DNA of 64,000 nucleotides, taken from assembly GCA_947568835.1 (NCBI GenBank), contig OX387611.1, forward strand, positions 2,484,001-2,548,000, given 5' to 3'. Every line of letters begins with the position of its first letter. Positions within the stretch are counted from its first letter, which is position 1. Both the position numbers and the translations under genes were made by a program. Origin of the DNA: Protonemura montana. Taxonomy: Eukaryota; Arthropoda; Insecta; Plecoptera; Nemouridae. Under the pieces are notes generated by a model. The model was not told where the DNA came from. It worked only from the letters and a program-made list of their open reading frames with translations, and made no database searches. Positions 65 to 59,400 of this stretch are shown here, piece by piece.

Positions 65-81
65 CATTGAATTGATCCAAG

Positions 82-1407: not shown

Positions 1408-1433
1408 AAAGTGTATCAGAGGTAAATAATGTC

Positions 1434-7826: not shown

Positions 7827-7844
7827 AACCAATTGTTGCATGGG

Positions 7845-17645: not shown

Positions 17646-17912
17646 ACCAAACCCATCCCCAATACCTGACCCAGCGCAGTGTTGCTTAACTTTCATCCCT
17701 CCAACCTCTCTCCCGAACAGAACTGGTCATGTGTATGATGGTCACCCATCCAATACCTGACCCAGTGCAGTTTTGCTTAACTTTCATCCCTCCAACCTCT
17801 CTCCCGAACAGAACTGGTCATGTGTATGATGGTCACCCATCCAATACCTGACCCAGCGCAGTGTTGCTTAACTTGCATCCCTCCAACCTCTCTCCCGAAC
17901 AGAACTGGTCAC
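17646..17912 (-). repeat. 91-bp 5S-derived array, 3 copies
   Basis: Three monomers in minus-strand 5S orientation. The last monomer runs without a break into the 15-bp array, which repeats a segment internal to this monomer. Confidence 0.9.
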
Positions 17913-19577
17913 GTGTATGATGGTCATGTGTATGATGGTCATGTGTATGATGGTCATGTGTATGATGGTCATGTGTATGATGGTCATGTGTATGATGGTC
18001 ATGTGTATGATGGTCATGTGTATGATGGTCATGTGTATAATGGTCACGTGTATGATGGTCATGTGTATGATGGTCACGTGTATAATGGTCACGTGTATGA
18101 TGGTCATGTGTATGATGGTCATGTGTATGATGGTCACGTGTATGATGGTCATGTGTTTGATGGTCATGTGTATGATGGTCATGTGTATGATGGTCATGTG
18201 TATGATGGTCACGTGTATAATGGTCACGTGTATGATGGTCATGTGTATGATGGTCATGTGTATGATGGTCACGTGTATGATGGTCATGTGTTTGATGGTC
18301 ATGTGTATGATGGTCATGTGTATGATGGTCATGTGTATGATGGTCATGTGTATGATGGTCATGTATATGATGGTCATGTGTATGATGGTCATGTGTATGA
18401 TGGTCATGTGTATGATGGTCATGTGTATGATGGTCATGTGTATGATGGTCATGTGTATTATGGTCATGTGTATGATGGTCATGTGTATGATGGTCATGTG
18501 TATGATGGTCATGTGTATAATGGTCATGTGTATGATGGTCATGTGTATGATGGTCATGTGTATGATGGTCACGTGTATGATGGTCATGTGTATGATGGTC
18601 ATGTGTATGATGGTCATGTGTATGATGGTCATGTGTATGATGGTCATGTGTATGATGGTCATGTGTATGATGGTCACGTGTATGATGGTCATGTGTATGA
18701 TGGTCATGTGTATGATGGTCACGTGTATGATGGTCATGTATATGATGGTCATGTGTATGATGGTCATGTGTATGATGGTCATGTGTATGATGGTCATGTG
18801 TATGATGGTCATGTGTATGATGGTCATGTGTATGATGGTCATGTGTATGATGGTCATGTGTATGATGGTCATGTGTATGATGGTCATGTGTATGATGGTC
18901 ATGTGTATGATTGTCATGTGTATGATGGTCATGTGTATGATGGTCATGTATATGATGGTCATGTGTATGATGGTCATGTGTATGATGGTCATGTGTATGA
19001 TGGTCATGTGTATGATGGTCATGTGTATGATGGTCATGTGTATGATGGTCATGTGTATGATGGTCATGTGTATGATGGTCATGTGTATGATTGTCATGTG
19101 TATGATGGTCATGTGTATGATGGTCATGTGTCTGATGGTCATGTGTATGATGGTCATGTGTATGATGGTCATGTGTATGATGGTCATGTGTATGATGGAC
19201 ATGTATATGATGGTCATGTGTATGCTGATCATGTGTATGATGGTCATGTGTATGATGGTCATGTGTATGATGGTCATGTGTATGATGGTCATGTGTATGA
19301 TGGTCATGTGTATGATGGTCATGTGTATGATGGTTATGTGTATGATGGTCATGTGTATGATGGTCATGTGTATGATGGTCATGTGTATGATGGTCATGTG
19401 TATGATGGTCATGTGTATGATGGTCATGTGTATGATGTTCATGTGTATGATGGTCACGTGTATGATGGTCATGTGTATGATGGTCATGTGTTTGATGGTC
19501 ATGTGTATGATGGTCATGTGTATGATGGTCATGGGTATGATGGTCCTGTGTATGATGGTCATGTATATGATAGTCAC
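17905..19577 (+). repeat. 15-bp tandem repeat, about 110 copies
   Basis: The unit GGTCATGTGTATGAT is repeated for 1.66 kb with few changes (C for T in CACGTG variants, GTATATGAT, GTTTGAT). It equals the stretch between two GGTCA words inside the 91-bp monomer. Since 15 is divisible by three, both strands stay open: an HVYDG pentapeptide frame on + and an ITMTI-like frame on the minus strand. I treat these as artefacts. The array ends 0.73 kb before the sog start codon. Confidence 0.97.
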
Positions 19578-26400: not shown

Positions 26401-29400
26401 TGCTTAACTTTCATCCCTCCAACCTCTCTCCCGAACAGTGCTAGTCATGTGTATGATGGTCACCCATCCAATACCTGACCCAGCGCAGTGTTGCTTAACT
26501 TTCATCTTTTCAGCCTCTCTCCCAAACAGATCTGGTCATGTGTATGATTGTCACCCATCCAATACCTGACCCAGTGCAGTGTTGCTTAACTTTCATCCCT
26601 CCAACCTCTCACCCGAACAGAACTGGTCATGTGTATGATAGTCACCCATCCAATACCTGACCCAGCACAGTGTTGCTTAACTTTCATCCCTCCAACCTCT
26701 TTTATTTTGTAAGGATAGATATTTATCAGCCCATATTTAAATTCAGGAATCCGAGCCCTTTTCATTTTTAGGTCGGCTGGTAGATGGTTCAAAAATGTGA
26801 AATGTTTAAAATTTTTAAAATTATTCTTGAAATTTTTAACTTGATGGCAATAACTGGAAAGCTCTTCTAGTGTTTGTCAAATTCACATTCAAATGTATTC
26901 ACAATTCAATGAATATCAGTAAAACTTGAGCTTGGTAATTACGTTGTGGGGGTATTTTACATTCAATCTTGGAATCCGGCTTAGAATAAACATGAACGTC
27001 TTTAAGACGTGTCTGTTAATGGCAAAGTGACAGAATGTCATGGACTAATTTACCAGGATTTACCCAAAATTACCTGGAATTACCTAAACCTACCTGGATT
27101 TTATTATTGTTATTATTTGTGGTATTTAACGACGCATTGTTTTGACATCTGGCCATGTGGCACTGGTCTAATGGCTTCGGTGAATGAGTGGTTGATGATG
27201 AACCTAACCTAGCCTAGCAGGGAGGGGAAACCCGGTGCAATCACGCAGCCTACTCTTGTCGAAGACCAAGGTGACCACCGGCTTAACGTCCCTTCGGAAG
27301 GACGGTACAACGCGAAAAACAAGATTCCTCCACAAATCCATGCTGTCGAGAGGTTGATAAGCAAGGCGAGTGAAGTTGCTGTACTAACTTTCATCCCTCC
27401 AACATCTCTCCCAAACAGAACTGGTCATGTGTATGATGATCACCCAACCAATACCTGACTCAGCGCAGTGTTGCTTAACTTTCATCCCTCCAATCTCTCT
27501 CCCGAACAGAACTAGTCATGTGTATGATGGTCACCCATCCAATACCTGACTCAGCGCAGTGTTGCTTAACTTTCATCCCTCCAACCTCTCTCCCGAACAG
27601 AACTGGTCATGTGTATGATGGTCACCCATCCAATACCTGACTCAGCGCAGTGTTGCTTAACTTTCATCCCTCCAACCTCTCTCCCGAACAGAACTGGTCA
27701 TGTGTATGATGGTCACCCATCCAATACCTGACCCAGCGCAGTGTTGCTTAACTTTCATCCCTCCAACCTCTCTCCCGAACATAACTAGTCATGTGTATGA
27801 TGGTCACCCATCCAATACCTGACACAGCGCAGTGTTGCTTAACTTCGGTGATCTAACGAGAGCCGGTGTTTCCAACACGCCAAACCGTTCGGTACTTAGA
27901 TTTAACTTGAATCCTCAGAAATTACCTAAATTTTCCTTGTTTTACCTGCGCCAGATGCTTTAGCTGCCATCGGGGACATTTCAGTACGATTTTAATTCGA
28001 TGCCCAAACTCTGATGCCAGGTTTTCAAGGTAACCAAACCTGAGCCGCCCAAAGGCATTTCGTTTTCTTGCTAGAAATTCAAATCAATGTCAAGACTTAG
28101 ACTTCTAAGATGATGATTCAGTTTCGTTGAAGATTAAATGGGGATTAAATAAGTTCTGTCCAAGTCCAGGCTAGTCCTGACACGTCCTGGCATGTCCTGG
28201 CACGTCCTGACACGTCCTGACACGTCCTGACATGTCCTGACATGTTCTGGCATGTCCTGGCATGTCCTGACATGTCCTGACACGTCCTGGCATGTCCTGA
28301 CATGTCCTGGCACGTCCTGGCATGTCCTGGCATGTCCTGGCATGTCCTGACATGTCCTGGCATGTCCTGGCATGTCCTGACATGTCCTGGCATGTCCTGA
28401 CATGTCCTGACACGTCCTGGCACGTCCTGGCACGTCCTGAAATGTACTCTGAATTTCTTTATTTTCACTTTTAATTTAAAACCGCAAATTTCAGTTGAAA
28501 GAAGAAATCGCCGGACAACACAAATCGTACAAAAACTAATTTTTCTTGTTTTTTTTTTGAACTTTGAAAAATGTCATCGATTCAGAGAAAAAATTAATCT
28601 TCAGTCTAATCCGGGTAACGTCTGACGTTGGTGAAATCGACCGTCATTCGATGTAAATGGGAGTGGGGCGAAGGGGGGTCAAAAAATCACTTTGCGCTGC
28701 CAAAGTTTTTGTCCACGAATCGCTCAGCGCTCCGCTAGCGTCGAGCGCTGAGCGCTGAGCGCTCGACGTAAAAACCGAAACTGGTTGGCGGTGACACCCG
28801 GCGAGACGGCGTCGTAGTCTTCCGCGATCGTGACCCGGCGCGGTACCAGTGGCGTAGCACCAGGCACCGGCCAGTGGCGTAGCCTTGTCACTTTGACACA
28901 CTGTGTTGGCTGCTCCTGTCCAACAGCACCAAGAACCGGCCAACGCTTAGCCTTGTCACTTTGACACACTGTGTTGGCTGCTCCTGTCCAACAGCACCAA
29001 GAACCGGCCAACGCTTAGCCTTGTCACTTTGACACACTGTGTTGGCTGCTCCTGTCCAACAGCACCAAGGACCGGCCACCACTTAGCCTTGTCACTTTGA
29101 CACACTGTGTTGGCTGCTCCTGTCCAACAGCACCAAGGACCGGCCACCGCTTAGCCTTGTCACTTTGACACACTGTGTTGGCTGCTCCTGTCCAACAGCA
29201 CCAAGGACCGGCCACCGCTTAGCCTTGTCACTTTGACACACTGTGTTGGCTGCTCCTGTCCAACAGCACCAAGGACCGGCCACCGCTTAGCCTTGTCACT
29301 TTGACACACTGTGTTGGCTGCTCCTGTCCAACAGCACCAAGGACCGGCCACCGCTTAGCCTTGTCACTTTGACACACTGTGTTGGCTGCTCCTGTCCAAC

Positions 29401-32400
29401 AGCACCAAGGACCGGCCACCGCTTAGCCTTGTCACTTTGACACACTGTGTTGGCTGCTCCTGTCCAACAGCACCAAGGACCGGCCACCGCTTAGCCTTGT
29501 CACTTTGACACACTGTGTTGGCTGCTCCTGTCCAACAGCACCAAGGACCGGTCACCGCTTAGCCTTGTCACTTTGACACACTGTGTTGGCTGCTCCTGTA
29601 CAACAGCACCAAGGACCGGCCACCGCTTAGCCTTGTCACTTTGACACACTGTGTTGGCTGCTCCTGTCCAACAGCACCAAGGACCGGTCACCGCTTAGCC
29701 TTGTCACTTTGACACACTGTGTTGGCTGCTTCTGTCCAACAGCACCAAGGACCGGCCACCGCTTAGCCTTGTCACTTTGACACACTGTGTTGGCTGCTCC
29801 TGTCCAACAGCACCAAGGACCGGCCACCGCTTAGCCTTGTCACTTTGACACACTGTGTTGGCTGCTCCTGTCCAACAGCACCAAGGACCGGTCACCGCTT
29901 AGCCTTGTCACTTTGACACACTGTGTTGGCTGCTCCTGTACAACAGCACCAAGGACCGGCCACCGCCTAGCCCTGTCTACTTAACCTGTAAACCCAATGG
30001 CAGGACGTTTAACATTAGCGCTGTGACTCTGACTAAACCTGTAAACCCAATGGCAGGACGTTTAACATTAGCGCTGTGACTCTGACTTAACCTGTAAACC
30101 CAATGACAGGACGTTTAACATTAGCGCTGTGACTCTGACTAAACCTGTAAACCCAATGACAGGACGTTTAACATTAGCGCTGTGACTCTGACTTAACCTA
30201 TAAACCCAATGACAGGACGTTTAACATTAGCGCTGTGACTCTGACTAAACCTGTAAACCCAATGGCAGGACGTTTAACATTAGCGCTGTGACTCTGACTA
30301 AACCTGTTAACCCAATGACATGACGTTTAACATCAGCGATGTGACTCTGACTTAACCTGTAAACTCAATGACTTGAGTAAATGTTTTTGGCACGGACTAT
30401 ACGAGCTCCAGGCTGTCGTCCTTGCAAAGCTCTTTCGTTTTATTTACCGATAAAAAAAAAGCCAATCGAAAAATCGCCAAGCGATTGATTCACATCACGC
30501 TAGTGGCGTGAAAACAGATGCACGCGACCGAACATACGCCACTGGAAACAGCTTGTGTGGCGTATATTACCCGTGTTAAACTAATTCGTGTCTCAGCGAA
30601 GAAAGCTCACTACCAGCATGGAGTTGCTTAGTGATAAGAAAGTTCCAGGTTCGATCCTGGTGGCCGGCTTTCCTGGTAGTGAGAGCGCCATGTCTGCCTT
30701 GCATTCGAGAGGTCCCAGGTTCGTACCTGGGATCGAAGCAACACTGCGCTGAGTCAGGTATTGGATGGGTGACCATCATATACATGACCAGTTCTGTTCG
30801 GGAGTGAGGTTGGAGGGTTGAAAGTTAAGCAACACTGCGCTGGGTCAGGTATTGGATGGGTGACCATCATACACATGACCAGTTCTGTTCGGGAGAAAGG
30901 TTGGAGGGATGAAAGTTAAGCAACACTGTGCTGGGTCAGGTATTGGATGGGTGACCATCATACACATGACCAGTTCTGTTCGGGAGAGAGGTTGGAGGGA
31001 TGAAAGTTAAGCAACACTGTGCTGGGTCAGGTATTGGATGGGTGACCATCATACACATGACCAGTTCTGTTCGGGAGAGAGGTTGGAGGGATGAAAGTTA
31101 AGCAATACTGTGCTGGGTCAGGTAATGGATGGGTGACCATCATACACATGACCAGTTCTGTTTGGGAGAGAGGTTGGAGGGATGAAAGTCTGTAATTGTG
31201 ACGTAATCCCACACATGGTTTCATCAACACTAGGTCAAGTGGTAGGGGGTGGGGGAGCTGGGGTTGCCTGTCTGTGTTAAAAAATGACGTCATTATCCGA
31301 CTGCGCAAAATGAGTCTTGTTTTTTCTGATAGTATTAAATTTCACGAGGCTAACAAAAAAAAATGTCGCTAAAATTAAATTCGAGGACCGGATGTCGGGT
31401 TCGTTTCCGTCGTCAACTTCTGCGGCAAAAAGTTTCATGGAATTCCTTGGCATAAATTGGCCTTCCTATTCAGTTAAAATGGCCGACCACACAGCTGTCT
31501 TGCAACATTAACCTATAAGAGCAATGGTGAAGTCTACCAGTTAAAATGGCCGACCACACAGCTGTCTTGCAACATTAACCCATAAGAGCAATGGTGAAGT
31601 CCACCAGTTAAAATGGCCGACCACACAGCTGGCTTGCAACATTAACCCATAAGAGCAATGGTGAAGTCCACCAGTTAGAATGGCCGACCACACAGCTGTC
31701 TTGCAACATTAACCCATAAGAGCAATGGTGAAGTCCACCAGTTAAAATGGCCGACCACACAGCTGGCTTGCAACATTAACCCATAAGAGCAATGCCAACA
31801 CAGTGTGTCAAAGTGACAAGGCTAAGCGGTGGCCGGTCCTTGGTGCTGTTGGACTGGAGCAGCCAACACAGTGTGTCAAAGTGACAAGGCTAAGCGGTGG
31901 CTGGCCCTTGGTGCTGTTGGACAGGAGCAACCAACACAGTGTGTCAAAGTGACAAGGCTAAGCGGTGGCCGGTCCTTGGTGCTGTTGGACAGGAGCAGCC
32001 AACACAGTGTGTCAAAGTGACAAGGCTAAGCGGTGGCTGGTCCTTGGTGCTGTTGTACAGGAGCAGCCAACACAGTGTGTCAAAGTGGCAAGGCTAAGCG
32101 GTGGCCGGTCCTTGGTGCTGTTGGACAGGAGCAGCCATCACAGTGTGTCAAAGTGACAAGGCTAAGCGGTGGCCGGTCCTTGGTGCTGTTGGACAGGAGC
32201 AGCCAACACAGTGTGTCAAAGGGACAAGGCTAAGCGGTGGCCGGTCCTTGGTGCTGTTGGACAGGAGCAGCCAACACAGTGTGTCAAAGGGACAAGGCTA
32301 AGCGGTGGCCGGTCCTTGGTGCTGTTGGACAGGAGCAGCCAACACAGTGTGTCAAAGGGACAAGGCTAAGCGGTGGCCGGTTCTTGGTGCTGTTGGACAG

Positions 32401-35400: not shown

Positions 35401-38400
35401 TTGGCGACGCTGAGGTGTCTGCTTCCCCCCCACCCCCTCCACCACGTGATGGACGCCGTCGCTGCTGCGCCGGATGTAAAACAAATATAATCCTGGCCCG
35501 ACGCCCAGATCAAGCGTCGCGACGCCGAGCGTAACTAGGGCCTTGGGTGTCTGGATTATCAGGCTTTAAGTCGAGTCACAGTTCTAAAGTTGGCGCAAAA
35601 ACAAACCGTTTTACAAACTAAACTTGTCATTTTGTTATCAGAACAAGAAGAAGTGGTTTTTGAAAAAACACAATTTTATTCTTAAAAATGCTAAATACTT
35701 TTGAAATTTTGATGCTCAACGAGGACTTGGACCCTGATCTCCACCTGGCACGGGTGTTGCTCTAACCAATTGAGCTACTTGGACCCCGATCTCCACCTGT
35801 CGCGGGTGTTGCTCTAACCAATTGAGCTACTTGGACCCCGATCTCCACCTGTCGCGGGTGTTGCTCTAACCAATTGAGCTACTTAGACCCCGATCTCCAC
35901 CTGTCGGTGGTGTTGCTCTAACCAATTGAGCTACTTGAACCCCGATCTCCACCTGTCACGGGTGTTGCTCTAACCAATTGAGCTACTCGAACCCCGATCT
36001 CCACCTGTCGCGGGTGTTGCTCTAACCAATTGAGCTGCTTGGACCTTGATCTTCACCTGTCATGGGTGTTGCTCTAACCAATTGAGCTACTTGGACCCCG
36101 ATCTCCACCTGTCGCGGGTGTTGCTCTAACCAATTGAGCTACTTGAACCCCGATCTCCACCTGTCGCGGATGTTGCTCTAACCAATTGAGCTACTTGAAC
36201 CCCGATCTCCACCTGTCACGGGTGTTGCTCTAACCAATAGAGCTACTCGGACACATCGTTTATTGATAGGTTTTTAGTGCATCGGATAGAATCACAAGAA
36301 AAGTAAAGATTGATTCACGATCAAAAAAATTTTTATTGGAGTTGAACTTTCTAATTAATACTCACATTAATAGAATTTTTTGAGTCAAATAATATTTTTT
36401 TAAATAGTTTAATTTAAATTAAAAGACGTAAGGGGCTGAACCCGACCGCACGCCACAAGAGCACTGACCGACGACATTGCCCGAGACAAGCTGACGCAAG
36501 ATCTAAAATTACACGACTTGTTTATACGGCATTAAACTGAACCAAGGTGGCGCCAGTCCATGTCCCAGCCTTGCCTGGACCCTGCCCCCATGTCCCACGT
36601 CCCAGCCTTGCCTGGACCCTGCCCCCATGTCCCATGTCCCAGCCTTGCCTGGACCCTGCCCCCATGTCCTATGTCCCAGCCTTGCCTGGACCCTGCCCCC
36701 ATGTCCCATGTCCAAGCCTTTCCTGGACCCTGCCCCCATGTCCCATGTCCAAGCCTTGCCTGGACCCTGCCCCCATGTCCCAGCCTTGCCTGGACCCTGC
36801 CCCCATGTCCCATGTCCAAGCCTTGCCTGGACCCTGCCCCCATGTCCCAGCCTTGCCTGGACCCTACCCCCATGTCCCATGTCCCATGTCCCAGCCTTGC
36901 CTGGACCCTGCCCCCATGTCCCATGTCCCATGTCCCATGTCCCATGTCCCATGTCCCATGTCCCATGTCCCATGTCCCATGTCCCTTGTGCCAGCCTTGC
37001 CTGGACCCTGCCCCCATGTCCCATGTCCCATGTCCCATGTCCCATGTCCCATGTCCCATGTCCCATGTCCCATGTCCCATGTCCCATGTCCCTTGTGCCA
37101 GCCTTGCCTGGACCCTGCCCCCATGTCCCATGTCCCATGTCCCATGTCCCATGTCCCATGTCCCATGTCCCATGTCCCATGTCCCATGTCCCATATCCCA
37201 TGTCCCATGTCCCATGTCCCATGTCCCATGTCCCATGTCCCATGTCCCATGTCCCATATCCCATGTCCCATGTCCCATATCCCATGTCCCATGTCCCATG
37301 TCCCATGTCCCATATCCCATGTCCCATGTCCCATGTCCCATGTCCCATGCCCCATGTCCCATGTCCCATATCCCATGTCCCATGTCCCATGTCCCATGTC
37401 CCATATCCCATGTCCCATGTCCCATGCCCCATGTCCCATGTCCCATGTCCCATGTCCCATGTCCCATGTCCCATGTCCCTTGTGCCAGCCTTGCCTGGAC
37501 CCTGCCCCCATGTCCCATGTCCCATGTCCCATGTCCCATGTCCCATGTCCCATGTCCCATGTCCCATGTCCCATATCCCATGTCCCATGTCCCATGTCCC
37601 ATGTCCCATGTCCCTTGTGCCATGTCCCATGTCCCATATCCCATGTCCCATGTCCCATGTCCCATGTCCCATGTCCCATGTCCCTTGTGCCAGCCTTGCC
37701 TGGACCCTGCCCCCATGTCCCATGTCCCATGTCCCATGTCCCATGTCCCATGTCCCATGTCCCATATCCCATGTCCCATGTCCCATGTCCCATGTCCCAT
37801 GTCCCATGTCCCATGTCCCATGTCCCATGTCCCATGTCCCATGTCCCATGTCCCATGTCCCATGTCCCATGTCCCATGTCCCTTGTCCCATGTCCCATGT
37901 CCCATGTCCCATATCCCATGTCCCATGTCCCATGTCCCATGTCCCATGTCCCTTGTCCCATGTCCCATATCCCATGTCCCATGTCCCATGTCCCATGTCC
38001 CATATCCCATGTCCCATGTCCCATGTCCCATGTCCCATGTCCCATGTCCCATGTCCCATGTCCCTAGAGCCAGTCTTGCCTGGAGGTCGTGGGTTATGAA
38101 CCACACTGTGGCAAGATCAACTACGCAGCCAACTAAACTGCAACATCAACTTTCTAAGACTAAAGTCTGAACGCGTTAAGATGCCCGGCCTTTGCATCGT
38201 ATCACTCAGTGCCTAGCCATGCGTTGAACCCGTCACGTAGCATCTTACATTCGACCGACTATATCTCGCCGATGACGTCATCGGTGGCGCTAAGCTGCGA
38301 ACGACGGCGCCACACGATCTGTCTGGCGATTTCTTTCAGACCTTGCCCGGTTAGCTCTGTCTCTCTTGCTCCCGTTGTAAGCGCCATATCTTCTCTCTCT

Positions 38401-41400: not shown

Positions 41401-44400
41401 TCATGAACTGCAAGCCATGTCTTGAGCTGGACAACATCATGGACTGCAAGCCATGTCTTGAGCTGGACAACAGCATGAACTGCAAGCCATGTCTAGAGCT
41501 GGACAACATCATGGACTGCAAGCCATGTCTTGAGCTGGACAACAGCATGGAATGCAAGCCATGTCTTGAGCTGGACAACAGCATGGACTGCAAGCCATGT
41601 CGTTCACTTTAAGTGGAACTCAGGACCTTGCCGCTGAGTTCTAGGCTTGGTTGTCTGGCTATCTTAACGTGGGTGTCTAGAGTTCGATTACCTGTTCTGT
41701 CCCCCATGCAAATATTCCAGCACCTTTCACTGGTAGTTGGTTTGAAATGCTATCCAAGTATGGAAATCTAGACAGGCGATGTCACGCCAGGGTCCCGAGT
41801 TCGAACACCTGGGCGAGCAAGCTTGATAAATAATGTGATAATCTTGTGATAAGACGATATCAAGCTCCTGGTTGCTAGAAAAATAATGAAACTTGCTTTA
41901 AATATCTATAAAAATACTGAAAATCGCATGAAATGTCTATAAAAATACTGAAAATCGCATTAAATTTCTATAAAAATACTGAAAATCGCATTAAATTTCT
42001 ATAAAAATACTGAAAATCGCATTAAATTGCAGTTAAAAATACTGAAATATTTTTTTCCAAACATATAATTGTTTAGTTGCTAAAAAACACCAATGTGTGT
42101 GGGATTTTATTTCTGAAAATACAAAATACATTAGTTTTTAAGTTATTGACCCTGATTATTTTATTTAGATGCATTTAGGAAGCTTGAACTTGGTAATTGT
42201 TATAATTTTATGTGGTTCTTTTGTTATTGGAAAATTGTCAGGACTGCTCTAACCCTTGATAAAGTAACAGGAACAAGTTACGAAACGTGTTAGGATCGTG
42301 AATCTTTACCAGGAAAGGTAAATAACGCAAAAATTAATTTTAAACAATTTTTAACTAACAATTGTTTTTATTCTGTCGCTCAATATTTAAACAAAAATGA
42401 AAAAAATGACAAAAATTAATTTTATAATTATACAGTATCGTTAATGGTCAAAAAGCTTTTCACCCTAAATTTGTGTCATTTAAACTGAACTGCTCAAGTT
42501 ATGTACGCATTTAATTTGTAGGATTTTATTATTTGACTTTCTTAATTACATCAAAGTTAAATAAAAGAAAAAAATTAACTTTTTTTTAGCGACAAATTCA
42601 GTGTAAAATTGAACTTTGTTTTCGAGCAAATTTAGAGGCGGATCCCGTGATGGAAAAATTAGCGAAATGTCGTGCGCTAAACGAGCCTGTTAATTCACCA
42701 GTGGCGTAACGTCGGGTCTAAAGACAAAACAGCAAAGTAGCGAAAACTCGCCGTCGCCACTGTTCGAGCAATATTAGTCTAAAAAATAGCATTGTTTTGA
42801 CATCTGGTCATGCGGCACTGGTCTAATGGCGTCGGTGAATGAGTGGATGATGATGAAGCTAACCTAGCCTAGAAGGGAGGAGGGGAAACCCGGTGCCGGC
42901 ACGTAGCCTACTCCTGTCGAAGACCAAGGGGACCACCGGCTAATCGTCCCTTCCGAAGGACGGTACAACGCGAACAACAGGATTCCTCCACAAATCCATG
43001 CTGTCGAGAGGTTGATAAGCAAGGCGAGTGAAGTTGCTGTACTAACTTTCATCCCTCCAACCTCTCTCCCGAACAGAACTGGTCATGTGTATGATGGTCA
43101 CCCATCCAATACCTGACCCAGCGCAGTGTTACTTAACTTTCATCACCCCAACCTCTCTCACGAACAGAACTGGTCATGTGTATGATGGTCACCCATCCAA
43201 TACCTGACCCAGCGCAGTGTTGCTTAACTTTCATCACCCCAACCTCTCTCACGAACAGAACTGGTCATGTGTATGATGGTCACCCATCCAATACCTGACC
43301 CAGCGCAGTGTTGCTTAACTTTCATCCCTCCAACCTCTCACGAACAGAACTGGTCATGTGTATGATGGTCACCCATCCAATACCTGACCCAGCGCAGTGT
43401 TGCTTAACTTTCATCCCTCCAACCTCTCTCCCGAACAGAACTGGTCATGTGTATGATGGTCACCCATCCAATACCTGACCCAGCACAGTGTTGCTTAACT
43501 TTCATCCCTCCAACTTCTCTCACGAACAGAACTGGTCATGTGTATGATAGTCACCCATCCAATACCTGACCCAGCGCAGTGTTGCTTAACTTCATCACTC
43601 CAACCTCTCTCCCGAACAAAAATGGTCATGTGTATGATGGTCACCCATCCAATACCTGACCCAGCACAGTGTTGCTTAACTTTCATCCCTCCAACTTCTC
43701 TCACGAACAGAACTGGTCATGTGTATGATGGTCACCCATCCAATACCTGACCCAGCGCAGTGTTGCTTAACTTTCATCCCTCCAACCTCTCTCCCGAACA
43801 GAACTGGTCATGTGTATGATGGTCACCCATCCAATACCTGACCCAGCGCAGTGTTGCTTAACTTTCATCCCTCCAACCTCTCTTCCGAACAGAACTGGTC
43901 ATGTGTATGATGATCACCCATCCAATACCTGACTCAGCGCAGTGTTGCTTAACTTCGGTGACCAACACGCCAAACCGTTCTGTGCTGTCATTCTAGGCAA
44001 TGAAAGAGCGCTTATTTTCAACTCGCATTTAAAACTGGTTTACACTCAATTAATCTTTATTAATGTTAACGTCAACGATTCGAACAACAAAAGCTATCTG
44101 GTGGCACCTACCGTTACCACGTATTGCCGGCCTCGTTTGCTCAGCAGCAAGCGCCATCAGGTGGCACCTACCGTTACCACGTGTTGCCGGCCTCGTTAGC
44201 TCAGCAGCAAGCGCCATCGTGTGGCACCTACCGTTACCACGTGTTGCCGGCCTCGTTTGCTCAGCAGCAAGCGCCATCAGGTGGCACCTACCGTTACCAC
44301 GTGTTGCCGGCCTCGTTTGCTCAGCAGCAAGCGCCATCGTGTGGCACCTACCGTTACCACGTGTTGCCGGCCTCGTTTGCTCAGCAGCAAGCGCCATCAG

Positions 44401-47400: not shown

Positions 47401-50400
47401 GCACCAAGCAGTGACCCTGGTATTACTGGCAGTAGCACCGTGCTAACTAGCACCACCATAGCACCAAGCAGTGACCCTGGTATTACTGTCAGTAGCACCG
47501 TGCTAACTAGCACCACCATAGCACCAAGCAGTGACCCTGGTATTACTGTCAGTAGCACCGTGCTAACTAGCACCACCATAGCACCAAGCAGTGACCCTGG
47601 TATTACTGTCAGTAGCACCGTGCTAACTAGCACCACCATAGCACCAAGCAGTGACCCTGGTATTACTGTCAGTAGCAACGTGCTAGCTAGCACCACCATA
47701 GCACCAAGCAGTAACCCTGGTATTACTGTCAGTAGCACCACCATAGCACCAAGCAGTGACCCTGGTATTACTGTCAGTAGCACCGTGCTAACTAGCACCA
47801 CCATAGCACCAAGCAGTGACCCTGGTATTACTGTCAGTAGCACCGTGCTAACTAGCACCACCATAGCACCAAGCAGTGACCCTGGTATTACTGTCAGTAG
47901 CACCGTGCTAACTAGCACCACCATAGCACCAAGCAGTGACCCTGGTATTACTGTCAGTAGCACCATGCTAACTAGCACCACCATAGCACCAAGCAGTGAC
48001 CCTGGTATTACTGTCAGTAGCACCGTGCTAACTAGGACCACCATAGCACCAAGCAGTGATCCTGGTATTACTGTCAGTAGCACCGTGCTAACTAGCACCA
48101 CCATAGCACCAAGCAGTGACCCTGGTATTACTGTCAGTAGCACCGTGCTAACTAGCACCACCATAGCACCAAGCAGTGACCCTGGTATTACTGTCAGTAG
48201 CACCGTGCTAACTAGCACCAGCATAGCACCAAGCAGTAACCCCGCCCTAGAGCTGTGATTGGTTTTTGTGGTTAAAATGGGCGTGTCTTTGTTTCTAGGG
48301 ATGAGCGTTCCACGTGACGTTGGTCCGGAGGAGGAAGAGAGGAACATGAAACGTGAGTAGCGACGGCACCGGGTTCAGCCTCGGCTCCCTGCTAGTCTCT
48401 AACACTGCAATTAAATAGAATCTTACAATCTTATGAAGGGATTTTCAAATCCAAAAAATTGATTTAGGTCTTTTATTTGATGAACCTGTTTTACTTCAGT
48501 GTAAATTAAGGTTTAAGTTAAATTTATTAATGGCTTAACCGGAATTTATGCCAAATTAAAGCTAGGCTTAAACTGAATTTAAGCCTAATTAAAGCTAGGC
48601 TTAACCGGAATTTATGCCAAATTAAAGTTAGGCTTAAACTGAATTTAAGCCTAATTAAAGCTAGGCTTAACCGGAATTTATGCCACATTAAAGCTAGGCT
48701 AAAACTGAATTTATGCCACATTAAAGCTAGGCTTAACCGGAATTTATGCCAAATTAAAACTAGGCTTAACTGGAATTTATGCCAAATTAAAGCTAGGCTT
48801 AACTGGAATTTATGCCAAATTAAAACTAGGCTTAACTGGAATTTATGCCAAATTAAAACTAGGCTTAACTGGAATTTATGCCAAATTAAAGCTAGGCTTA
48901 ACCGGAATTTATGCCACATTAAAGCTAGGCTTAACCGGAATTTATGCCAAATTAAAACTAGGCTTAACTGGAATTTATGCCAAATTAAAGCTAGGCTTAA
49001 CTGGAATTTATGCCAAATTAAAGCTAGGCTTAACTGGAATTTATGCCAAATTAAAGCTAGGCTTAACTGGAATTTATGCCAAATTAAAGCTAGGCTTAAC
49101 CGGAATTTATGCTAAATTAAAGCTTGGCTTAACTGGAATTTAAGCTAAATTAAAGCTCGGCTTAACTGGAATTTATGCTTAATTAAAGCTAGGCTTAACC
49201 GGAATTTTAGTCGCGTCTGGTTTCTTTCAAAATGGATTTCATTGTCATTACAGAATTTATTAAAATAAAAAAAATAAAATTCAATGCCAGGTTTTAGTCT
49301 AAGTCCTCGTCTTCCTTTGCTTCAGATTTTGCCGCCATCCTGACTGGTCGTACGTCTCTTGTTCTCCACCGAGACGACGCCTTCCTGCCAGGATCGACGC
49401 CGTCGCGACGCCAGGAGAACGTCGTCGCCACAGGAAGATTCACATTTCACCGGAAACACCTCTACTTCTCATTCTATACAAGCGGAACCACGCGGCCTAA
49501 AGGTGAGTTAAGCAACACTGCACTGGGTCAGGTATTGGATGGGTGACCATCATACACATGACCAGTTCTGTTCGGGAGAGAGGTTGGAGGGATGAAAGTT
49601 AAGCAACACTGTGCTGAGTCAGGTATTGGATGGAAGACCATCATACACATGACCAGTTCTGTTTGGGAGAGAGGTTGGAGGGATGAAAGTTAAGCAACAC
49701 TGTGCTGGTTCGGGTATTGGATGGGAGACCATCATACACATGACCAGTTCTGTTTGGGAGAGAGGTTGGAGGGATGAAAGTTAAGCAACACTGCACTGGG
49801 TCAGGTATTGGATGGGTGACCATCATACACATGACCAGTTCTGTTCGGGAGAGAGGTTGGAGGGATGAAAGTTAAGCAACACTGCGCTGGGTCAGGTATT
49901 GGATGGGTGACCATATTACACATGACCAGTTCTGTTTGGGAGAAAGGTTGGAGGGATGAAAGTTAAGCAACACTGTGCTGGTTCGGGTATTGGATGGGAG
50001 ACCATCATACACATGACCAGTTCTGTTTGGGAGAGAGGTTGGAGGGATGAAAGTTAAGCAACACTGCACTGGGTCAGGTATTGGATGGGTGACCATCATA
50101 CACATGACCAGTTCTGTTCGGGAGAGAGGTTGGAGGGATGAAAGTTAAGCAACACTGCGCTGGGTCAGGTATTGGATGGGTGACCATCATACACATGACC
50201 AGTTCTGTTCGGGAGAGAGGTTGGAGGGATGAAAGTTAAGCAACACTGCGCTGGGTCAGGTATTGGATGGGTGACCATATTACACATGACCAGTTCTGTT
50301 TGGGAGAAAGGTTGGAGGGATGAAAGTTAAGCAACACTGCGCTGGGTCAGGTATTGGATGGGTGACCATATTACACATGACCAGTTCTGTTCGGGAGAGA

Positions 50401-53400
50401 GGTTGGAGGGATGAAAGTTAAGCAACACTGCGCTGGGTCAGGTATTGGATGGGTGACCATCTTACACATGACCAGCTCTGTTCAGGAGAGAGGTTGGAGG
50501 GATGAAAGTTAAGCAACACTGCGCTGGGTCAGGTATTGGATGGGTGACCATATTACACATGACCAGTTCTGTTTGGAAGAAAGGTTGGAGGGATGAAAGT
50601 TAAGCAACACTGCGCTGGGTCAGGTATTGGATGGGTGACCATATTACACATGACCAGTTCTGTTTGGGAGAAAGGTTGGAGGGATGAAAGTTAAGCAACA
50701 CTGCGCTGGGTCAGGTATTGGATGGGTGACCATCTTACACATGACCAGTTCTGTTCGGGAGAGAGGTTGGAGGGATGAAAGTTAAGCAACACTGCGCTGA
50801 GTCAGGTATTGGATGGGTGACCATCATACACATGACCAGTTCTGTTTGGGAGAGAGGTTGGAGGGATGAAAGTTAAGTAACACAGCTCTGGTTCAGGTAT
50901 TGGATGGGTGACCATCATACACATGACCAGTTCTGTTCGGGAGAGAGGTTGGAGGGATGAAAGTTAAGTAACACAGCTCTGGTTCAGGTATTGGATGGTT
51001 GACTATGTTCTAGCCTTGCAGTTTGTGGATCAGGCTGGTAACATCCTGCTTGAAATGAACGTCGCTGCTGATTCGGCTTACGCGGTGGCGACTGGAAAAG
51101 TCTGTGGGGTTTGGCATCGCGTTCCTCGGGAATATCGCCGGCTTCTCAGAGAAGAGAAGGTTTACGCTACGTTGGTCTGGGCCAACGAGCAGGAACCTCT
51201 CAGCGGGCCAGTAGCCAGGTAAGATTATTTTATTTATTTTGTAATATTTTTTATAAATTTTTTTTTTTTTTATTCATTTTTATTATTAATTTTATTATTT
51301 TATAATATTTCACTGGTCTAATGGCGTCCGTGAATGAGTGGATGATGAACCTAACCTAGCTTAAAAGAGAAATACCCGGTGTGGCACGTAGCCTACTCCT
51401 GTCGAAGACCAAGGGGACCACCGGCTTAACGTCCCTTCCGAAGGACGGTACAACGCGAACAACAGGATTCCTCTACAAATCCATGCTGTCGAGAGGTTGA
51501 TAAGCAAGGCGAGTGAAGTTGCTGTCGAGAGGTTGATAAGCAAGGCGAGTGAAGTTGCTGTCGAGAGGTTAATAAGCAAGGCGAGTGAAGTTGCTGTACT
51601 AACTTTCATCCCTCCAACCTCTCTCCCGAACAGAACTGGTCATGTGTATGATGGTCACCCATCCAATACCTGACCCAGCGCAGTGTTGCTTAACTTTCAT
51701 CCCTCCAACCTCTCTCCCGAACAGAACTGGTCATGTGTATGATAGTCACCCATCCAATACCTGACCCAGCGCAGTGTTGCTTAACTTTCATCCCTCCAAC
51801 CTCTCTCCCGAACAGAACTGGTCATGTGTATGATGGTCACCCATCCAATACCTGACCCAGCGCAGTGTTGCTTAACTTTCATCCCTCCAACCTCTCTCCC
51901 GAACAGAACTGGTCATGTGTATGATGGTCACCCATCCAATACCTGACCCAGCGCAGTGTTGCTTAACTTTCATCCCTCCAACCTCTCTCCCGAACAGAAC
52001 TGGTCATGTGTATGATGGTCACCCATCCAATACCTGACCCAGCGTAGTGTTGCTTAACTTTCATCCCTCCAACCTCTCTCCCGAACAGAACTGGTCATGT
52101 GTATGATGGTCACCCATCCAATACCTGACTCAGCGCAGTGTTGCTTAACTTTCATCCCTCCAACCTCTCTCCCGAACAGAACTGGTCATGTGTATGATGG
52201 TCACCCATCCAATTCCTGACTCAGCGCAGTGTTGCTTAACTTTCATCCCTCCAACCTCTCTCCCGAACAGAACTGGTCATGTGTATGATGGTCACCCATC
52301 CAATTCCTGACTCAGCGCAGTGTTGCTTAACTTTCATCCCTCCAACCTCTCTCCCGAACAGAACTGGTCATGTGTATGATGGTCACCCATCCAATTCCTG
52401 ACTCAGCGCAGTGTTGCTTAACTTTCATCCCTCCAACCTCTCTCCCGAACAGAACTGGTCATGTGTATGATGGTCACCCATCCAATTCCTGACTCAGCGC
52501 AGTGTTGCTTAACTTTCATCCCTCCAACCTCTCTCCCGAACAGAACTGGTCATGTGTATGATGGTCACCCATCCAATACCTGACCCAGCGCAGTGTTGCT
52601 TTACTTTCATCCCTCCAACCTCTCTCCCAAACAGAACTGGTCATGTGTATGATGGTCACCCATCCAATACCTGACTCAGCGCAGTGTTGCTTAACTTTCA
52701 TCCCTCCAACCTCTCTCCCGAACAGAACTGGTCATGTGTATGATGGTCACCCATCCAATACCTGACCCAGCACAGTGTTGCTTAACTTTCATCCCTCCAA
52801 CCTCTCTCCCGAACAGAACTGGTCATGTGTATGATGGTCACCCATCCAATACCTGACCCAGCACAGTGTTGCTTAACTTTCATCCCTCCAACCTCTCTCC
52901 CGAACAGAACTGGTCATGTGTATGATGGTCACCCATCCAATACCTAACCCAGCGCAGTGTTGCTTAACTTTCATCCCTCCAACCTCTCTCCCGAACAGAA
53001 CTGGTCATGTGTATGATGGTCACCCATCTAATACCTGACCCAGCGCAGTGTTGCTTAACTTTCATCCCTCCAACCTTTCTCCCGAACAGAACTGGTCATG
53101 TGTATGATGGTCAACCATCCAATACCTGACCCAGTGCAGTGTTGCTTAACTTTCATCCCTCCAACCTCTCTTCCGAACAGAACTGGTCATGTGTATGATG
53201 GTCACCCATCCAATACCTGACCCAGCGCAGTGTTGCTTAACTTTCATCCCTCCAACCTCTCTCCCGAACAGAACTGGTCATGTGTATGATGGTCACCCAT
53301 CCAATACCTGACCCAGCACAGTGTTGTTTAACTTTCATCCCTCCAACCTCTCTCCCGAACAGAACTGGTCATGTGTATGATGGTCACCCATCCAATACCT

Positions 53401-56400
53401 GACCCAGCGCTGTGTTGCTTAACTTTCATCCCTCCAACCTCTCTCCCGAACAGAACTGGTCATGTGTATGATGGTCACCCATCCAATACCTGACCCAGCG
53501 CAGTGTTGCTTAACTTTCATCCCTCCAACCTCTCTCCTGAACAGAACTGGTCATGTGTATGATGGTCACCCATCCAATACCTGACTCAGCACAGTGTTGC
53601 TTAACTTTCATCCCTCCAACCTCTCTCCCGAACAGAACTGGTCATGTGTATGATGGTCACCCATCCAATACCTGACTCAGCGCAGTGTTGCTTAACTTTC
53701 ATCCCTCCAACCTCTCTCCCGAACAGAACTGGTCCTGTGTATGATGGTCACCCATCCAATACCTGACCCAGCACAGTGTTGCTTAACTTTCATCCCTCCA
53801 ACCTCTCTCCCGAACAGAACTGGTCATGTGTATGATGGTCACCCATCCAATACCTGACCCAGCGCAGTGTTGCTTAACTTTCATCCCTCCAACCTCTCTC
53901 CCGAACAGAACTGGTCATGTGTATGATGGTCACCCATCCAATACCTGACCCAGCGCAGTGTTGCTTAACTTTCATCCCTCCAACCTCTCTCCCGAACAGA
54001 ACTGGTCATGTGTATGATGGTCACCCATCCAATACCTGACCCAGCGCAGTGTTGCTAAACTTGCATCCCTCCAACCTCTCTCCCGAACAGAACTGGTCAT
54101 GTGTATGATGGTCACCCATCCAATACCTGACCCAGCGCAGTGTTGCTAAACTTGCATCCCTCCAACCTCTCTCCCGAACAGAACTGGTCATGTGTATGAT
54201 GGTCACCCATCCAATACCTGACCCAGCGCAGTGTTGCTTAACTTGCATCCCTCCAACCTATCTCCCGAACAGAACTGGTCATGTGTATGATGGTCACCCA
54301 TCCAATACCTGACTCAGCGCAGTGTTGCTTAACTTTCATCCCTCCAACCTCTCTCCCAAACAGAACTGGTCATATGTATGATGGTCACCCATCCAATACC
54401 TGACCCAGCGCAGTGTTGCTTAACTTTCATCCCTCCAACCTCTCTCCCAAACAGAACTGGTCATGTGTATGATGGTCAACCAACCAATACCTGACCCAGC
54501 GCAGTGTTGCTTAACTTTCATCCCTCCAACCTCTCTCCCGAACAGAACTGGTCATGTGTATGATGGTCAACCAACCAATACCTGACCCAGCGCAGTGTTG
54601 CTTAACTTTCATCCCTCCAACCTCTCTCCCGAACAGAACTGGTCATGTGTATGATGGTCAACCAACCAATACCTGACCCAGCGCAGTGTTGCTTAACTTT
54701 CATCCCTCCAACCTCTCTCCCGAACAGAACTGGTCATGTGTATGATGGTCAACCAACCAATACCTGACCCAGCGCAGTGTTGCTTAACTTTCATCCCTCC
54801 AACCTCTCTCCCGAACAGAACTGGTCATGTGTATGATGGTCAACCAACCAATACCTGACCCAGCGCAGTGTTGCTTAACTTTCATCCCTCCAACCTCTCT
54901 CCCGAACAGAACTGGTCATGTGTATGATGGTCAACCAACCAATACCTGACCCAGCGCAGTGTTGCTTAACTTTCATCCCTCCAACCTCTCTCCCGAACAG
55001 AACTGGTCATGTGTATGATGGTCAACCAACCAATACCTGACCCAGCGCAGTGTTGCTTAACTTTCATCCCTCCAACCTCTCTCCCGAACAGAACTGGTCA
55101 TGTGTATGATGGTCAACCAACCAATACCTGACCCAGCGCAGTGTTGCTTAACTTTCATCCCTCCAACCTCTCTCCCGAACAGAACTGGTCATGTGTATGA
55201 TGGTCACCCATCCAATACCTGACCCAGCGCAGTGTTGCTTAACTTTCATCCCTCCAACCTCTCTCCCGAACAGAACTGGTCATGTGTATGATGGTCACCC
55301 ATCCAATACCTGACCCAGCGCAGTGCTGCTTAACTTGCATCCCTCCAACCTCTCTCCCGAACAGAACTGGTCGTGTGTATGATGGTCACCCATCCAATAC
55401 CTGACCCAGCGCAGTGTTGCTTAACTTTCATCCCTCCAACCTCTCTCCCGAACAGAACTGGTCATGTGTATGATGGTCACCCATCCAATACCTGACCTAG
55501 CGCATTGTTGCTTAACTTTCATCCCTCCAACCTCTCTCCCGAACAGAACTGGTCATGTGTATGATGGTCACCCATTCAATACCTGACCTAGTGCAGTGTT
55601 GCTTTACTTTCATCCCTCCAACCTCTCTCCCGAACAGAACTGGTCATGTGTATGATGGTCACCCATCCAATACCTGACCTAGCGCATTGTTGCTTAACTT
55701 TCATCCCTCCAACCTCTCTCCCGAACAGAACTGGTCATGTGTATGATGGTCACCCATCCAATACCTGACTCAGCGCAGTGTTGCTTTACTTTCATCCCTC
55801 CAACCTCTCTCCCGAACAGAACTGGTCATGTGTATGATGGTCACCCATCCAATACCTGACTCAGCGCAGTGTTGCTTTACTTTCATCCCTCCAACCTCTC
55901 TCCCGAACAGAACTGGTCATGTGTATGATGGTCACCCATCCAATACCTGACCTAGCGCATTGTTGCTTAACTTTCATCCCTCCAACCTCTCTCCCGAACA
56001 GAACTGGTCGTGTGTATGATGGTCACCCATTCAATACCTGACTCAGCGCAGTGTTGCTTAACTTTCATCCCTCCAACCTCTCTCCCAAACAGAACTGGTC
56101 ATGTGTATGATGGTCACCCATCCAATACCTGACTCAGCGCAGTGTTGCTTAACTTTCATCCCTCCAACCTCTCTCCCGAACAGAACTGGTCATGTGTATG
56201 ATGGTCACCCATTCAATACCTGACTCAGCGCAGTGTTGCTTAACTTTCATCCCTCCAACCTCTCTCCCGAACAGAACTGGTCATGTGTATGATGGTCACC
56301 CATCCAATACCTGACCCAACGTAGTGTTGTTTAACTTTCATCCCTCCAACCTCTCTCCCGAACAGAACTGGTCATGTGTATAATGGTCACCCATCCAATA

Positions 56401-59400
56401 CCTGACTCAGCGCAGTGTTGCTTAACTTTCATCCCTCCAACCTCTCTCCCGAACAGAGCTGGTCATGTGTATGATGGTCACCCATCCAATACCTGACCCA
56501 GCGCAGTGTTGCTTAACTTTCATCCCTCCAACCTCTCTCCCGAACAGAGCTGGTCATGTGTATGATGGTCACCCATCCAATACCTGACTCAGTGCAGTGT
56601 TGCTTAACTTTCATCCCTCCAACCTCTCTCCCGAACAGAACTTGTCATGTGTATGATGGTCACCCATCCAATTCCTGACTCAGCGCAGTGTTGCTTAACT
56701 TTCATCCCTCCAACCTCTCTCCCGAACAGAACTGGTTATGTGTATGATGGTCACCCATCCAATATCTGAACCAGCGCAGTGTTGCTTAACTTTCATCCCT
56801 CCAACCTCTCTCCTGAACAGAGCTGGTCATGTGTATGATGGTCACCCATCCAATACCTGACTCAGCGCAGTGTTGCTTAACTTTCATCCCTCCAACCTCT
56901 CTCCCGAACAGAACTGGTCATGTGTATGATGGTCACCCATTCAATACCTGACTCAGCGCAGTGTTGCTTAACTTTCATCCCTCCAACCTCTCTCCCAAAC
57001 AGAACTGGTCATGTGTATGATGGTCACCCATCCAATACCTGACTCAGCGCAGTGTTGCTTAACTTTCATCCCTCCAACCTCTCTCCCGAACAGAACTGGT
57101 CATGTGTATGATGGTCACCCATTCAATACCTGACTCAGCGCAGTGTTGCTTAACTTTCATCCCTCCAACCTCTCTCCCGAACAGAACTGGTAATGTGTAT
57201 GATGGTCACCCATTCAATACCTGACTCAGCGCAGTGTTGCTTAACTTTCATCCCTCCAACCTCTCTCCCGAACAGAACTGGTCATGTGTATGATGGTCAC
57301 CCATTCAATACCTGACTCAGCGCAGTGTTGCTTAACTTTCATCCCTCCAACCTCTCTCCCGAACAGAACTGGTAATGTGTATGATGGTCACCCATTCAAT
57401 ACCTGACTCAGCGCAGTGTTGCTTAACTTTCATCCCTCCAACCTCTCTCCCGAACAGAACTGGTAATGTGTATGATGGTCACCCATCCAATACCTGACCC
57501 AGCGCAGTGTTGCTTAACTTTCATCCCTCCAACCTCTCTTCCGAACAGAACTGGTCATGTGTATGATGGTCACCCATTCAATACCTGACCCAGCGCAGTG
57601 TTGCTTAACTTTCATCCCTCCAACCTCTCTTCCGAACAGAACTGGTCATGTGTATGATGGTCACCCATTCAATACCTGACCCAGCGCAGTGTTGCTTAAC
57701 TTTCATCCCTCCAACCTCTCTCACGAACAGAACTGGTAATTTGACGCCATTAGACCAGTGCCGCATGACCAGATGTAAAAACAGTGCGTTGTTAAACACC
57801 ACAAAAAAAAAATAATTAAGACGGTTCTAGTGTTCATAATAATAAAATACCCCACGCATTGCAAGCGTTTTCAATTTCAATCGGATTATAACTAAATTAA
57901 CAAATGTTTAATTGTTTATTTTAGCTACCGAGGTTTGCCGACCGAACTGTTCACTGCGTTGTTAGCACCGAACTCTAGCGCTGTTGGCAGCGCCATGTTG
58001 GGAGCTGGAGGAACTGCTATAGTAACAGCATCGTCAACAACTCCCTCTATTCATGTTGAACTCGTTTTCAACGGCGTCTTCTCTCCCAAGGAGGTGGCGG
58101 ACGTAGCTCTGGTAAGTCGTGCTCTTAACTAGAGTCTTGCTCTTGCAAGCTCTAACTGTATCGTGTCCCGGCCGTCCCAGTGCCTTCCTCCCAATTCTAA
58201 TTCAAACTTCCTCCCAAACCTCACCTAACATAACATAACATAACCTTACCTAACCAAACCTTACCAAACCTAACCTTACCTAACCTAAACCTAAACCTAA
58301 CCTAACCTAACCTAACCAAACCTAACCAAACCTAACTTAACCTAACCTAACCTAACCTAACCTAACCTAACTTAACCTAACCTAACCTAACCTAACCTAA
58401 CCTAACCTAACCTAACCTTACCTAACCTAACCTTACCTTACCTAACCTAACCTAACCTAACCTTACCTAACCTAACCTAACCTAACCTAACCTAACCTAA
58501 CCTAACCTAACCTAACCTAACCTAACCTAACCTTACCTAACCTAACCTTACCTAACCTAACCTTACCTAACCTAACCTAACCTAACCTAACCTAACCTAA
58601 CCTAACATAACCTAACCTAACTTTGTTATTTTTCTCGCAGGTGGTTCGCCTAGAGACGAGCAACGGCACCGTGATCCTCGAGGAGTTGATCCGAGTGTTG
58701 AAGCCAGCGTTCGAAGTCAACGTTGCCGAGTTCAAGTCGGCCGTGTCGGCGGCAGATCTTCGACTCCTTACCCGCGGCCGACTTCACATCAGCATAGAGA
58801 ATCGAGACAATCCCAAGACGTTTCGTCTCGAGGGACGCATTCAGACTCGAGCCACGTGCGAAGTCTTTCAGGTTGGTACACGTGCATTTCGGGGTTATGT
58901 AGGACATTATGTAATTTAATTATGTTATGTTTAATTATGTTAATTTGGTATATCATGGCCTAGCATAGAAGGTTCAATGTTAGCAGGGGTATATCATGGT
59001 CTGGCATAGGAGGTTCAATGTTACCACGAGTATATCATGGCCTAGCATAGGAGGTTCAATGTTAGCACGGGTATATCATGGCCCAGCATAGGAGGTTCGA
59101 TGTTAGCACGGGTATATCATGGCCTGGCATAGGAGGTTCAATGTTACCACGGGTATATCATGGCCTAGCATAGGAGGTTCAATGTTAGCATGGGAATATC
59201 ATAGCCCAGCATAGGAGGTTCAATGTTAGCACGGGTATATCATGGCCTAGCATAGGAGGTTCAATGTTAGCACGGGTATATCATGGCCTAGCATAGGAGG
59301 TTGAATGTTAGCACGGGTATATCATGGCCTAGCATAGGAGGTTCAATGTTAGCACGGGTATATCATGGCCTAGCATAGGAGGTTCAATGTTAGCACGGGT

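Follow-up and report, generated by a model that had tools for sequence, protein, structure and literature searches.

What turns part of a 5S ribosomal RNA (rRNA) gene into a satellite that fills an intron? The question is raised by a stretch of 64,000 nucleotides from the insect Protonemura montana (Plecoptera, Nemouridae; GenBank assembly GCA_947568835.1, contig OX387611.1, positions 2,484,001 to 2,548,000, forward strand), which we call the window and which lies 2.5 Mb from the start of a 13-Mb contig (C14). Its 91-bp satellite forms its largest array at 51606-57737. The 91-bp monomer is an internal segment of a short interspersed element (SINE) headed by 5S rRNA sequence, and its link to 5S rRNA is real though indirect. 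Single-unit copies of this SINE occur all along contig C1, and extra units occur mainly in copies near contig ends. We consider it probable that the satellite represents an internal, expandable part of this 5S-rRNA-derived SINE and was multiplied mainly in chromosome-end zones. A single-unit SINE that grew to 67 units within an intron, in such a zone, is the most likely origin of the array at 51606-57737.

The 91-bp unit and its 5S rRNA similarity

Tandem Repeats Finder (TRF) reports a period of 91 with 67.5 copies and 97% matches at 51600-57737. An ungapped scan requiring at least 60 of 91 identical bases finds 133 monomers in ten arrays of the window, in good agreement with the roughly 135 monomers in ten arrays counted by a first-pass annotation of this DNA. 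In the 5S sense, eight of the ten arrays lie on the minus strand and two on the plus strand. A 14-mer of box C type, with up to two mismatches, is present at 134 sites in the window where 0.95 would be expected, and the exact pattern GTTAAGCAAC-N18-TTGGATGGGTGACC occurs there 77 times (15 plus, 62 minus).

The first-pass annotation had recognized in these two blocks, 18 bases apart, a spacing typical of 5S rRNA, had judged the rest of the monomer not to be 5S and had derived the satellite from 5S rRNA. The spacing is borne out by the 5S gene of the same genome, which contains GTTAAGCAAC-N18-TTGGATGGGTGACC with the spacing unchanged. Local alignment of the unit to this gene confirms the similarity with a score of 49, where none of 5,000 single-base shuffles exceeded the 29 reached by the best of them. 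It places unit positions 1-43 on 5S nucleotides (nt) 50-92, in register; beyond position 43 the match drops to 2-3 of 10 bases, so the remainder is indeed not 5S. The derivation itself stands for positions 1-43 and is unsupported as direct descent, the unit being an internal piece of a 5S-headed SINE.

A covariance search also returns a 5S hit within the window. The Rfam model RF00001 scores 59.5 bits at 27893-27773 on the minus strand, the sole accepted Rfam match in the window, and this match consists of the 5' half of 5S fused to the first monomer of a five-unit array. No Rfam match falls in the 67-unit array. Relaxing the Rfam threshold to E values up to 1 adds one match, which looks like chance, and ARAGORN finds no transfer RNA (tRNA). 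The complete 5S sequence (nt 1-119) has no match in the repeat: similarity stops at nt 92, and internal units begin at nt 50.

A SINE contains the unit

Reading outward from the ten arrays in the 5S sense, five enter one common body (AGTTAGTACAGCAACTTC...). A query with this body (27070-27389) gave 3,611 first-look candidates in the genome, of which 40 were scored, and the order head, units, body and (AAT)n tail recurs in many of the 30 loci taken as best matches to the window body. The consensus of the single-unit element is 427 bases long, with head, unit, body, (AAT)n tail and target-site duplications; in complete copies the tail ends in CACCACAAATAATAAT or similar. The head is colinear with the genome's own 5S to nt 92, the local alignment spanning nt 17-92. 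Target-site duplications of at least 8 exact bases flank 16 of the 54 complete copies (55 minus one duplicate, the source loci including the 30 best matches), against a mean of 0.35 and a maximum of 3 in a mispaired control. They bracket 11 copies with two to four units, and a 15-bp duplication was read in the loci L131-L134. Head, body and tail together with target-site duplications therefore identify a 5S-rRNA-derived SINE.

The family is large. The genome contains no fewer than 4,234 exact junctions of unit and body, spread over both strands, and at least 15,343 exact unit-unit junctions, against 0 for the reversed pattern in each case, and copies carry from 1 to 14 units between head and body. 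The 3' end of one long interspersed element (LINE) in the window is, by eye, unlike the SINE tail; no genome search for a partner LINE was made.

Where the multi-unit copies sit

In what follows contig ends are taken as chromosome ends; in contig C15 alone does a locus read near the contig start open with CCTAA repeats. On C1 (33.1 Mb), junctions were drawn from 100 places listed of the 4,234. The central sample comprises 20 of 40 listed junctions at 3.0-20.2 Mb, and the distal sample all 20 listed at 0.27-1.8 and 29.0-29.42 Mb. Sampled in this way from the matches listed, all 20 central copies have one unit, whereas 16 of 20 distal copies have two or more (p = 1e-6). The difference is retained among head-bearing copies only, with two or more units in 0/16 central and 6/9 distal copies (p = 5e-4). 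It also persists when body identity is matched at 87.5-94.1%, with multi-unit copies numbering 0/12 centrally and 13/16 distally (p = 1.5e-5; one body in this set, L111, spans just 33 bases). Removing copies cut inside their sole unit leaves 0/9 and 13/16, and a narrower band of 87.5-91.5% gives 0/10 and 5/7 (p = 0.003). Unrelated tandem repeats, too, make up more of the sequence beside distal than beside central C1 copies (6.8% vs 1.2% of bases), present at 5/20 and 2/20 loci in this small sample.

Genome-wide patterns of head, n units and body number 746, 187, 148 and 100 for n = 1 to 4, including a few copies of a 92-bp mode described below. The list of places spans the full genome for four units and the first 100 places listed for one to three units, the single-unit list covering C1 and part of C2. 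On C1, where the lists are complete, 27 of 29 copies with two to four units lie within 4.2 Mb of an end, compared with 24 of 55 single-unit copies (p = 5e-6). Among the matches listed, 85 of 92 two-unit places and 85 of 91 three-unit places are no more than 5 Mb from a contig end. The 92 are drawn from 100 listed (of 187), leaving out 3 of the 92-bp mode and 5 on C12; the 91 are what remains of 100 listed (of 148) once 2 copies of the 92-bp mode and 7 on C13 are removed. For four units, 89 of 96 copies lie within 5 Mb of an end, where 44% would be expected from the lengths of the 11 large contigs counted. These 96 remain of 100 rows after 4 that mix with the 92-bp mode were dropped, and 52 of the 100 rows came without letters, so that mixing cannot be judged in them.

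Several observations weigh against a simple preference of multi-unit copies for chromosome ends. Single-unit copies are likewise denser toward the ends, and only the four-unit list is genome-wide. Four of the 20 central C1 copies are headless, three of them cut inside the unit and uninformative on unit number. Seven of the 92 two-unit places listed are more than 5 Mb from an end, five of these on C5, and two four-unit copies on C1 lie 7-8 Mb from an end. Four-unit copies in the middle third of a contig number four, and all are on C14, the contig of the window, at 4.75-6.56 Mb; they are 4 of its 14 four-unit copies, and C14 is the sole such contig among the 11 with four-unit copies. L131-L134, four copies with three units each that lie mid-contig on C2 and C5, are 99% identical over the approximately 2 kb fetched, SINE included, and share one target-site duplication; their unit number is still three. 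Because they are near-identical segments with one target-site duplication, we set them aside as counterexamples; they are probably passengers of a larger mobile or duplicated segment.

Unit boundaries and a model of growth

In the single-unit element the unit begins at box A (...CACCGAAGTTAAGC) and stops just before the next AAGTTA (...GATGAAAGTTAGTAC). AAGTTA is thus a 6-bp direct repeat whose copies lie 91 bases apart in the single-unit SINE. The same rule describes a 36-bp expansion (ACAGCA) and a 15-bp expansion (TGACCA), and only 1 of 2,000 shuffles of the SINE had 6-bp repeats at all three distances of 91, 36 and 15.

In the model that we propose, the two AAGTTA copies would give rise to the first duplication after insertion, through slippage or unequal exchange. 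The array would then grow, and copies would trade units, by unequal exchange and conversion favoured near chromosome ends. Several features of the units are in keeping with local duplication. Neighbours in the 67-unit array differ by 2.12, against 3.10 when shuffled (the lowest of 1,000 permutations being 2.77), and 14 adjacent pairs are identical. Unit divergence is 0.038 within a copy and 0.054 between copies; the first unit is nearer to its own array than to the first units of other copies in 21 of 32 copies, and 7 of the 10 window arrays are more alike within than between. Rare mutations common to the units of one copy number 18, with 3.6 expected and at most 10 in 500 permutations.

Growth in place probably does not account for everything. 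Between 10 and 120, 6-bp repeats occur at nine further distances, with no expansion seen at them, and a period-92 mode (L069, L070, L071, L072, L073), which repeats the 5S-derived nt 1-92, lacks a 6-bp direct repeat at its bounds; it may have arisen by a template switch at the 5' end. In 11 of the 32 copies the first unit is no nearer to the rest of its array than to the first units of other copies, 3 of the 10 window arrays are no more alike within than between, and own-unit sharing of rare mutations is confined to 10 of the 32 multi-unit copies. In two-unit copies most units differ by common variants from a shared pool, which is not predicted by pure in-place duplication. Exchange between arrays, or retroposition of some copies with several units already present, probably contributes to this sharing of variants. 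The variant A21G is carried by 5 of 22 single units, against 51 of 68 middle units.

These discrepancies are where the strongest alternative draws its support. It holds that a younger SINE subfamily already had several units when it retroposed and inserted mainly close to chromosome ends, that an older single-unit subfamily is spread more evenly, and that extra units arose by template switching at AAGTTA during reverse transcription. The different common variants of most units in two-unit copies would fit such a history, as would the target-site duplications around 11 copies with two to four units and a 92-bp mode repeating nt 1-92, as expected of a 5'-end template switch. So would the less diverged bodies of multi-unit copies. 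On C1 the bodies of distal copies show less divergence than those of central copies (p = 0.03). Within the 40 best matches to the single-unit consensus, identity is 96-99% (unit plus body) for multi-unit copies and 93-97% (whole element) for single-unit copies, so that multi-unit copies look younger, which is a further point against growth in place. An age effect could still lie behind the contrast in unit number.

We nevertheless regard retroposition of a ready-made multi-unit subfamily as unlikely. Central and distal C1 copies have equal head divergence (15 and 9 copies, p = 0.93, a small sample), and thus by the head measure the insertions of distal copies do not look younger. The contrast in unit number persists at matched body identity, copy number falls steadily from one to four units (746, 187, 148, 100), and rare mutations are shared within copies beyond the permutation range. 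A 67-unit array, moreover, is too long for the usual SINE RNA. Growth after insertion, with trading of units, remains the reading that we favour.

The arrays of the window and their surroundings

Five of the ten window arrays keep the SINE body, and the remaining five are fragments. The features are as follows, with the basis of each in brackets.

51605-57701, minus strand: 67 monomers of the 91-bp unit, running antisense to the host gene and representing the expanded internal part of a 5S-headed SINE, with a partial unit to 57737 (TRF, ungapped scan).
51311-51604, minus strand: SINE body of the 67-unit copy, ending at CACTGGTCTAATGGCGTC (51311-51328) (body start AGTTAGTACAGC common to four other window arrays).
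51484-51597, minus strand: 3.2 copies of a 36-bp piece of the SINE body, with the direct repeat ACAGCA in the consensus (TRF, consensus).
57743-57815, plus strand: inverted 3'-end fragment of a second SINE copy, adjoining the array (direct reading).
27106-27893, minus strand: the complete SINE copy of the window, with head at 27845-27893, five units at 27390-27844 and body at 27106-27389 (Rfam, 59.5 bits; blast structure of L039).
43048-43954, minus strand: ten-unit array, with a head that lacks an internal stretch on one side and the SINE body on the other (scan; head by eye).
5718-6081, minus strand: four-unit array followed by the SINE body, headless, its 5' end a unit boundary (scan, outward reading).
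20585-20948, minus strand: four-unit array with a partial SINE body, its 5' side passing into a 10-bp minisatellite (TRF, scan, reading).
17692-17873, minus strand: array fragment of two units that passes directly into a 15-bp minisatellite built from an internal part of the unit (TRF, scan, reading).
17906-19576, minus strand: 15-bp minisatellite of 111 copies, a nested expansion of the unit sequence TCATACACATGACCA, with the direct repeat TGACCA in the consensus (TRF, consensus).
21973-22245, minus strand: degenerate three-unit array fragment (scan, reading).
25137-26682, minus strand: 17-unit array fragment with neither head nor body (scan, reading).
30732-31186, plus strand in the 5S sense: five-unit array fragment (scan, reading).
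49506-50961, plus strand: 16-unit array fragment, with an extra partial unit that ends some 20 bases before the 3' splice site of the chordin-like exon at 51022 (sequence, scan).
51022-51219, plus strand: exon of a CHRD-domain (chordin/sog-like) gene (splice sites by eye).

The next coding exons of the CHRD-domain gene start at 57925 and 58641, and the three exons joined by hand match Pfam CHRD with an E value of 9.3e-6. With splice sites placed by eye, the 67-unit array thus lies in an intron of this chordin/sog-like gene, in line with the first-pass annotation, which had placed it inside a developmental gene.

Tandem repeats of period 5 or more, of many families, make up 68.6% of the window. 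TTAGG-type repeats are present at 6681-7830 and 58217-58621 (TRF); together with an H2B of this genome whose nearest Protein Data Bank chains include fruit-fly histones, they point to an arthropod. A 52-bp satellite at 35725-36252 resembles by eye, in its reverse complement, part of a tRNA gene (AGCTCAATTGGTTAGAGCAAC), and ARAGORN and Rfam find no tRNA there; judged by this resemblance, it may be a second satellite derived from a gene transcribed by RNA polymerase III (Pol III). At 76-4433 lies a non-long-terminal-repeat (non-LTR) retrotransposon with a GDSL-lipase-type open reading frame (ORF1) and an endonuclease-reverse transcriptase frame (ORF2), both open, followed by a poly-A stretch.

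Promoter boxes and other origins

The first-pass annotation had held that the satellite keeps the internal promoter of 5S genes. What stands is the presence of the two blocks. The SINE consensus agrees with the genome's own 5S at 13/15 positions of box A, 3/6 of the intermediate element and 13/18 of box C under the box limits adopted here, and internal units are without 5S nt 1-49. Special conservation of the promoter boxes was considered and rejected. Across 133 monomers the mean minor-base frequency is 0.027 in the two blocks and 0.030 elsewhere (p = 0.86), and the three boxes (0.032) vary as much as the rest of the monomer (0.028; p = 0.98), so the annotation's expectation of greater conservation in boxes A and C was not borne out.

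An array maintained by selection as a 5S-type promoter platform, bound by TFIIIA or transcribed by Pol III, therefore appears very improbable to us. Its blocks do equal those of the genome's own 5S at exact spacing, and TTTT, absent from the SINE consensus and found in 3 of 133 monomers, is rare enough to make a read-through transcript possible. Against it stand box conservation no higher than in the rest of the monomer, the agreement of 3/6 in the intermediate element and 13/18 in box C, and internal units that start only at nt 50. As far as sequence can tell, the boxes would have been inherited from the SINE head with no sign of selection, and a promoter function of the array is unsupported.

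That the satellite was copied straight from a 5S rDNA array or a 5S pseudogene, with no SINE step, is hardly tenable. Such an origin would account for the clear 5S similarity of unit positions 1-43; it would leave unexplained that 5 of 10 window arrays and at least 4,234 genome junctions run into one SINE body and that the end of the unit falls inside SINE sequence, and the 5S genes are elsewhere, at L013 beside histone genes. The 5S genes themselves are found on both strands of C11 (G000:C11:70-105743) with a period of about 9.5 kb, and the one locus examined (L013) also has histone H2A and H2B.

A miniature inverted-repeat transposable element (MITE), a DNA transposon carrying the big array, was suggested by the perfect 18-bp inverted repeat CACTGGTCTAATGGCGTC at 51311 and 57743 and can scarcely be right: this sequence is ordinary SINE body near the 3' end, also present at 5486 and 42816, its right-hand copy belongs to an inverted SINE 3' fragment running into the SINE tail, and no such inverted end occurs in the other copies read.

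Relation to known systems

The closest precedent is provided by the SINE-derived satellites (sSats) of squamates, which are the same kind of event in the accessible part of their description (PMC10702118). There, too, the tandem repeats are part of a SINE and longer terminal units match the rest of it, and the sSats prefer chromosome ends: the preference is subtelomeric and stronger in longer loci, the parent SINE being described as randomly distributed. The squamate parents, Squam1-3, are not described there as 5S-headed, and copies with both SINE ends and repeats between them, common among the copies seen here, are a minor variant in squamates. Beyond that account, we related the number of units in intact copies to their position and used single-unit copies as the control.

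The SINE itself resembles the 5S-rRNA-derived insect SINEs HaSE3 (PMC3272025) and PxSE4/PxSE5 (PMC8010984), which likewise are interspersed and combine a 5S head with an unrelated body; their heads have boxes A, IE and C, and target-site duplications are reported for some of their copies. The likeness is one of description, and an internal tandem array is not mentioned in the accessible portions of those reports. A review (PMC6947457) covers, in the part available, how minisatellites are born between short direct repeats (Haber and Louis 1998), together with minisatellites derived from Alu or B1. As in our SINE, the unit lies within a retroelement and has a 5-10 bp direct repeat at its bounds; here, unlike there, one SINE family gives rise to lengths of 91, 36 and 15, and many parallel copies locate the growth. 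The available text of another review (PMC12628747) describes the Xenopus miDNA4 MITE, in which a mobile-element segment is single or a variable array and short direct repeats flank it; miDNA4 is a relative of DNA transposons, whereas the element here is a 5S-headed retroposon. The salamander Hy/Pol III satellite (PMC6947457, same portion) is likewise listed as derived from SINE-like elements and has Pol III in its name, with no 5S derivation stated. A literature search by title and start of abstract, with most subscription papers outside its reach, found no satellite from a 5S-headed SINE.

It is tempting to speculate further that chromosome ends form a distinct compartment that turns a dispersed one-unit SINE into a satellite and trades units between chromosomes, that growth multiplies potential TFIIIA sites, and that Pol III factors or the resulting conflicts may drive expansion. 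We offer this as a conjecture that is probably wrong in its full form.

Whether the seeds of satellites and minisatellites land near chromosome ends or grow there is an old question. With the same seed in thousands of places, the contrast along C1 begins to separate seeding from growth, and satellite birth becomes observable in many parallel copies. Whether end-linked growth reflects recombination or replication is testable with long reads from populations. The locus also shows 5S-type promoter boxes being spread by a retroposon in the form of an array, here within a CHRD-domain gene intron.

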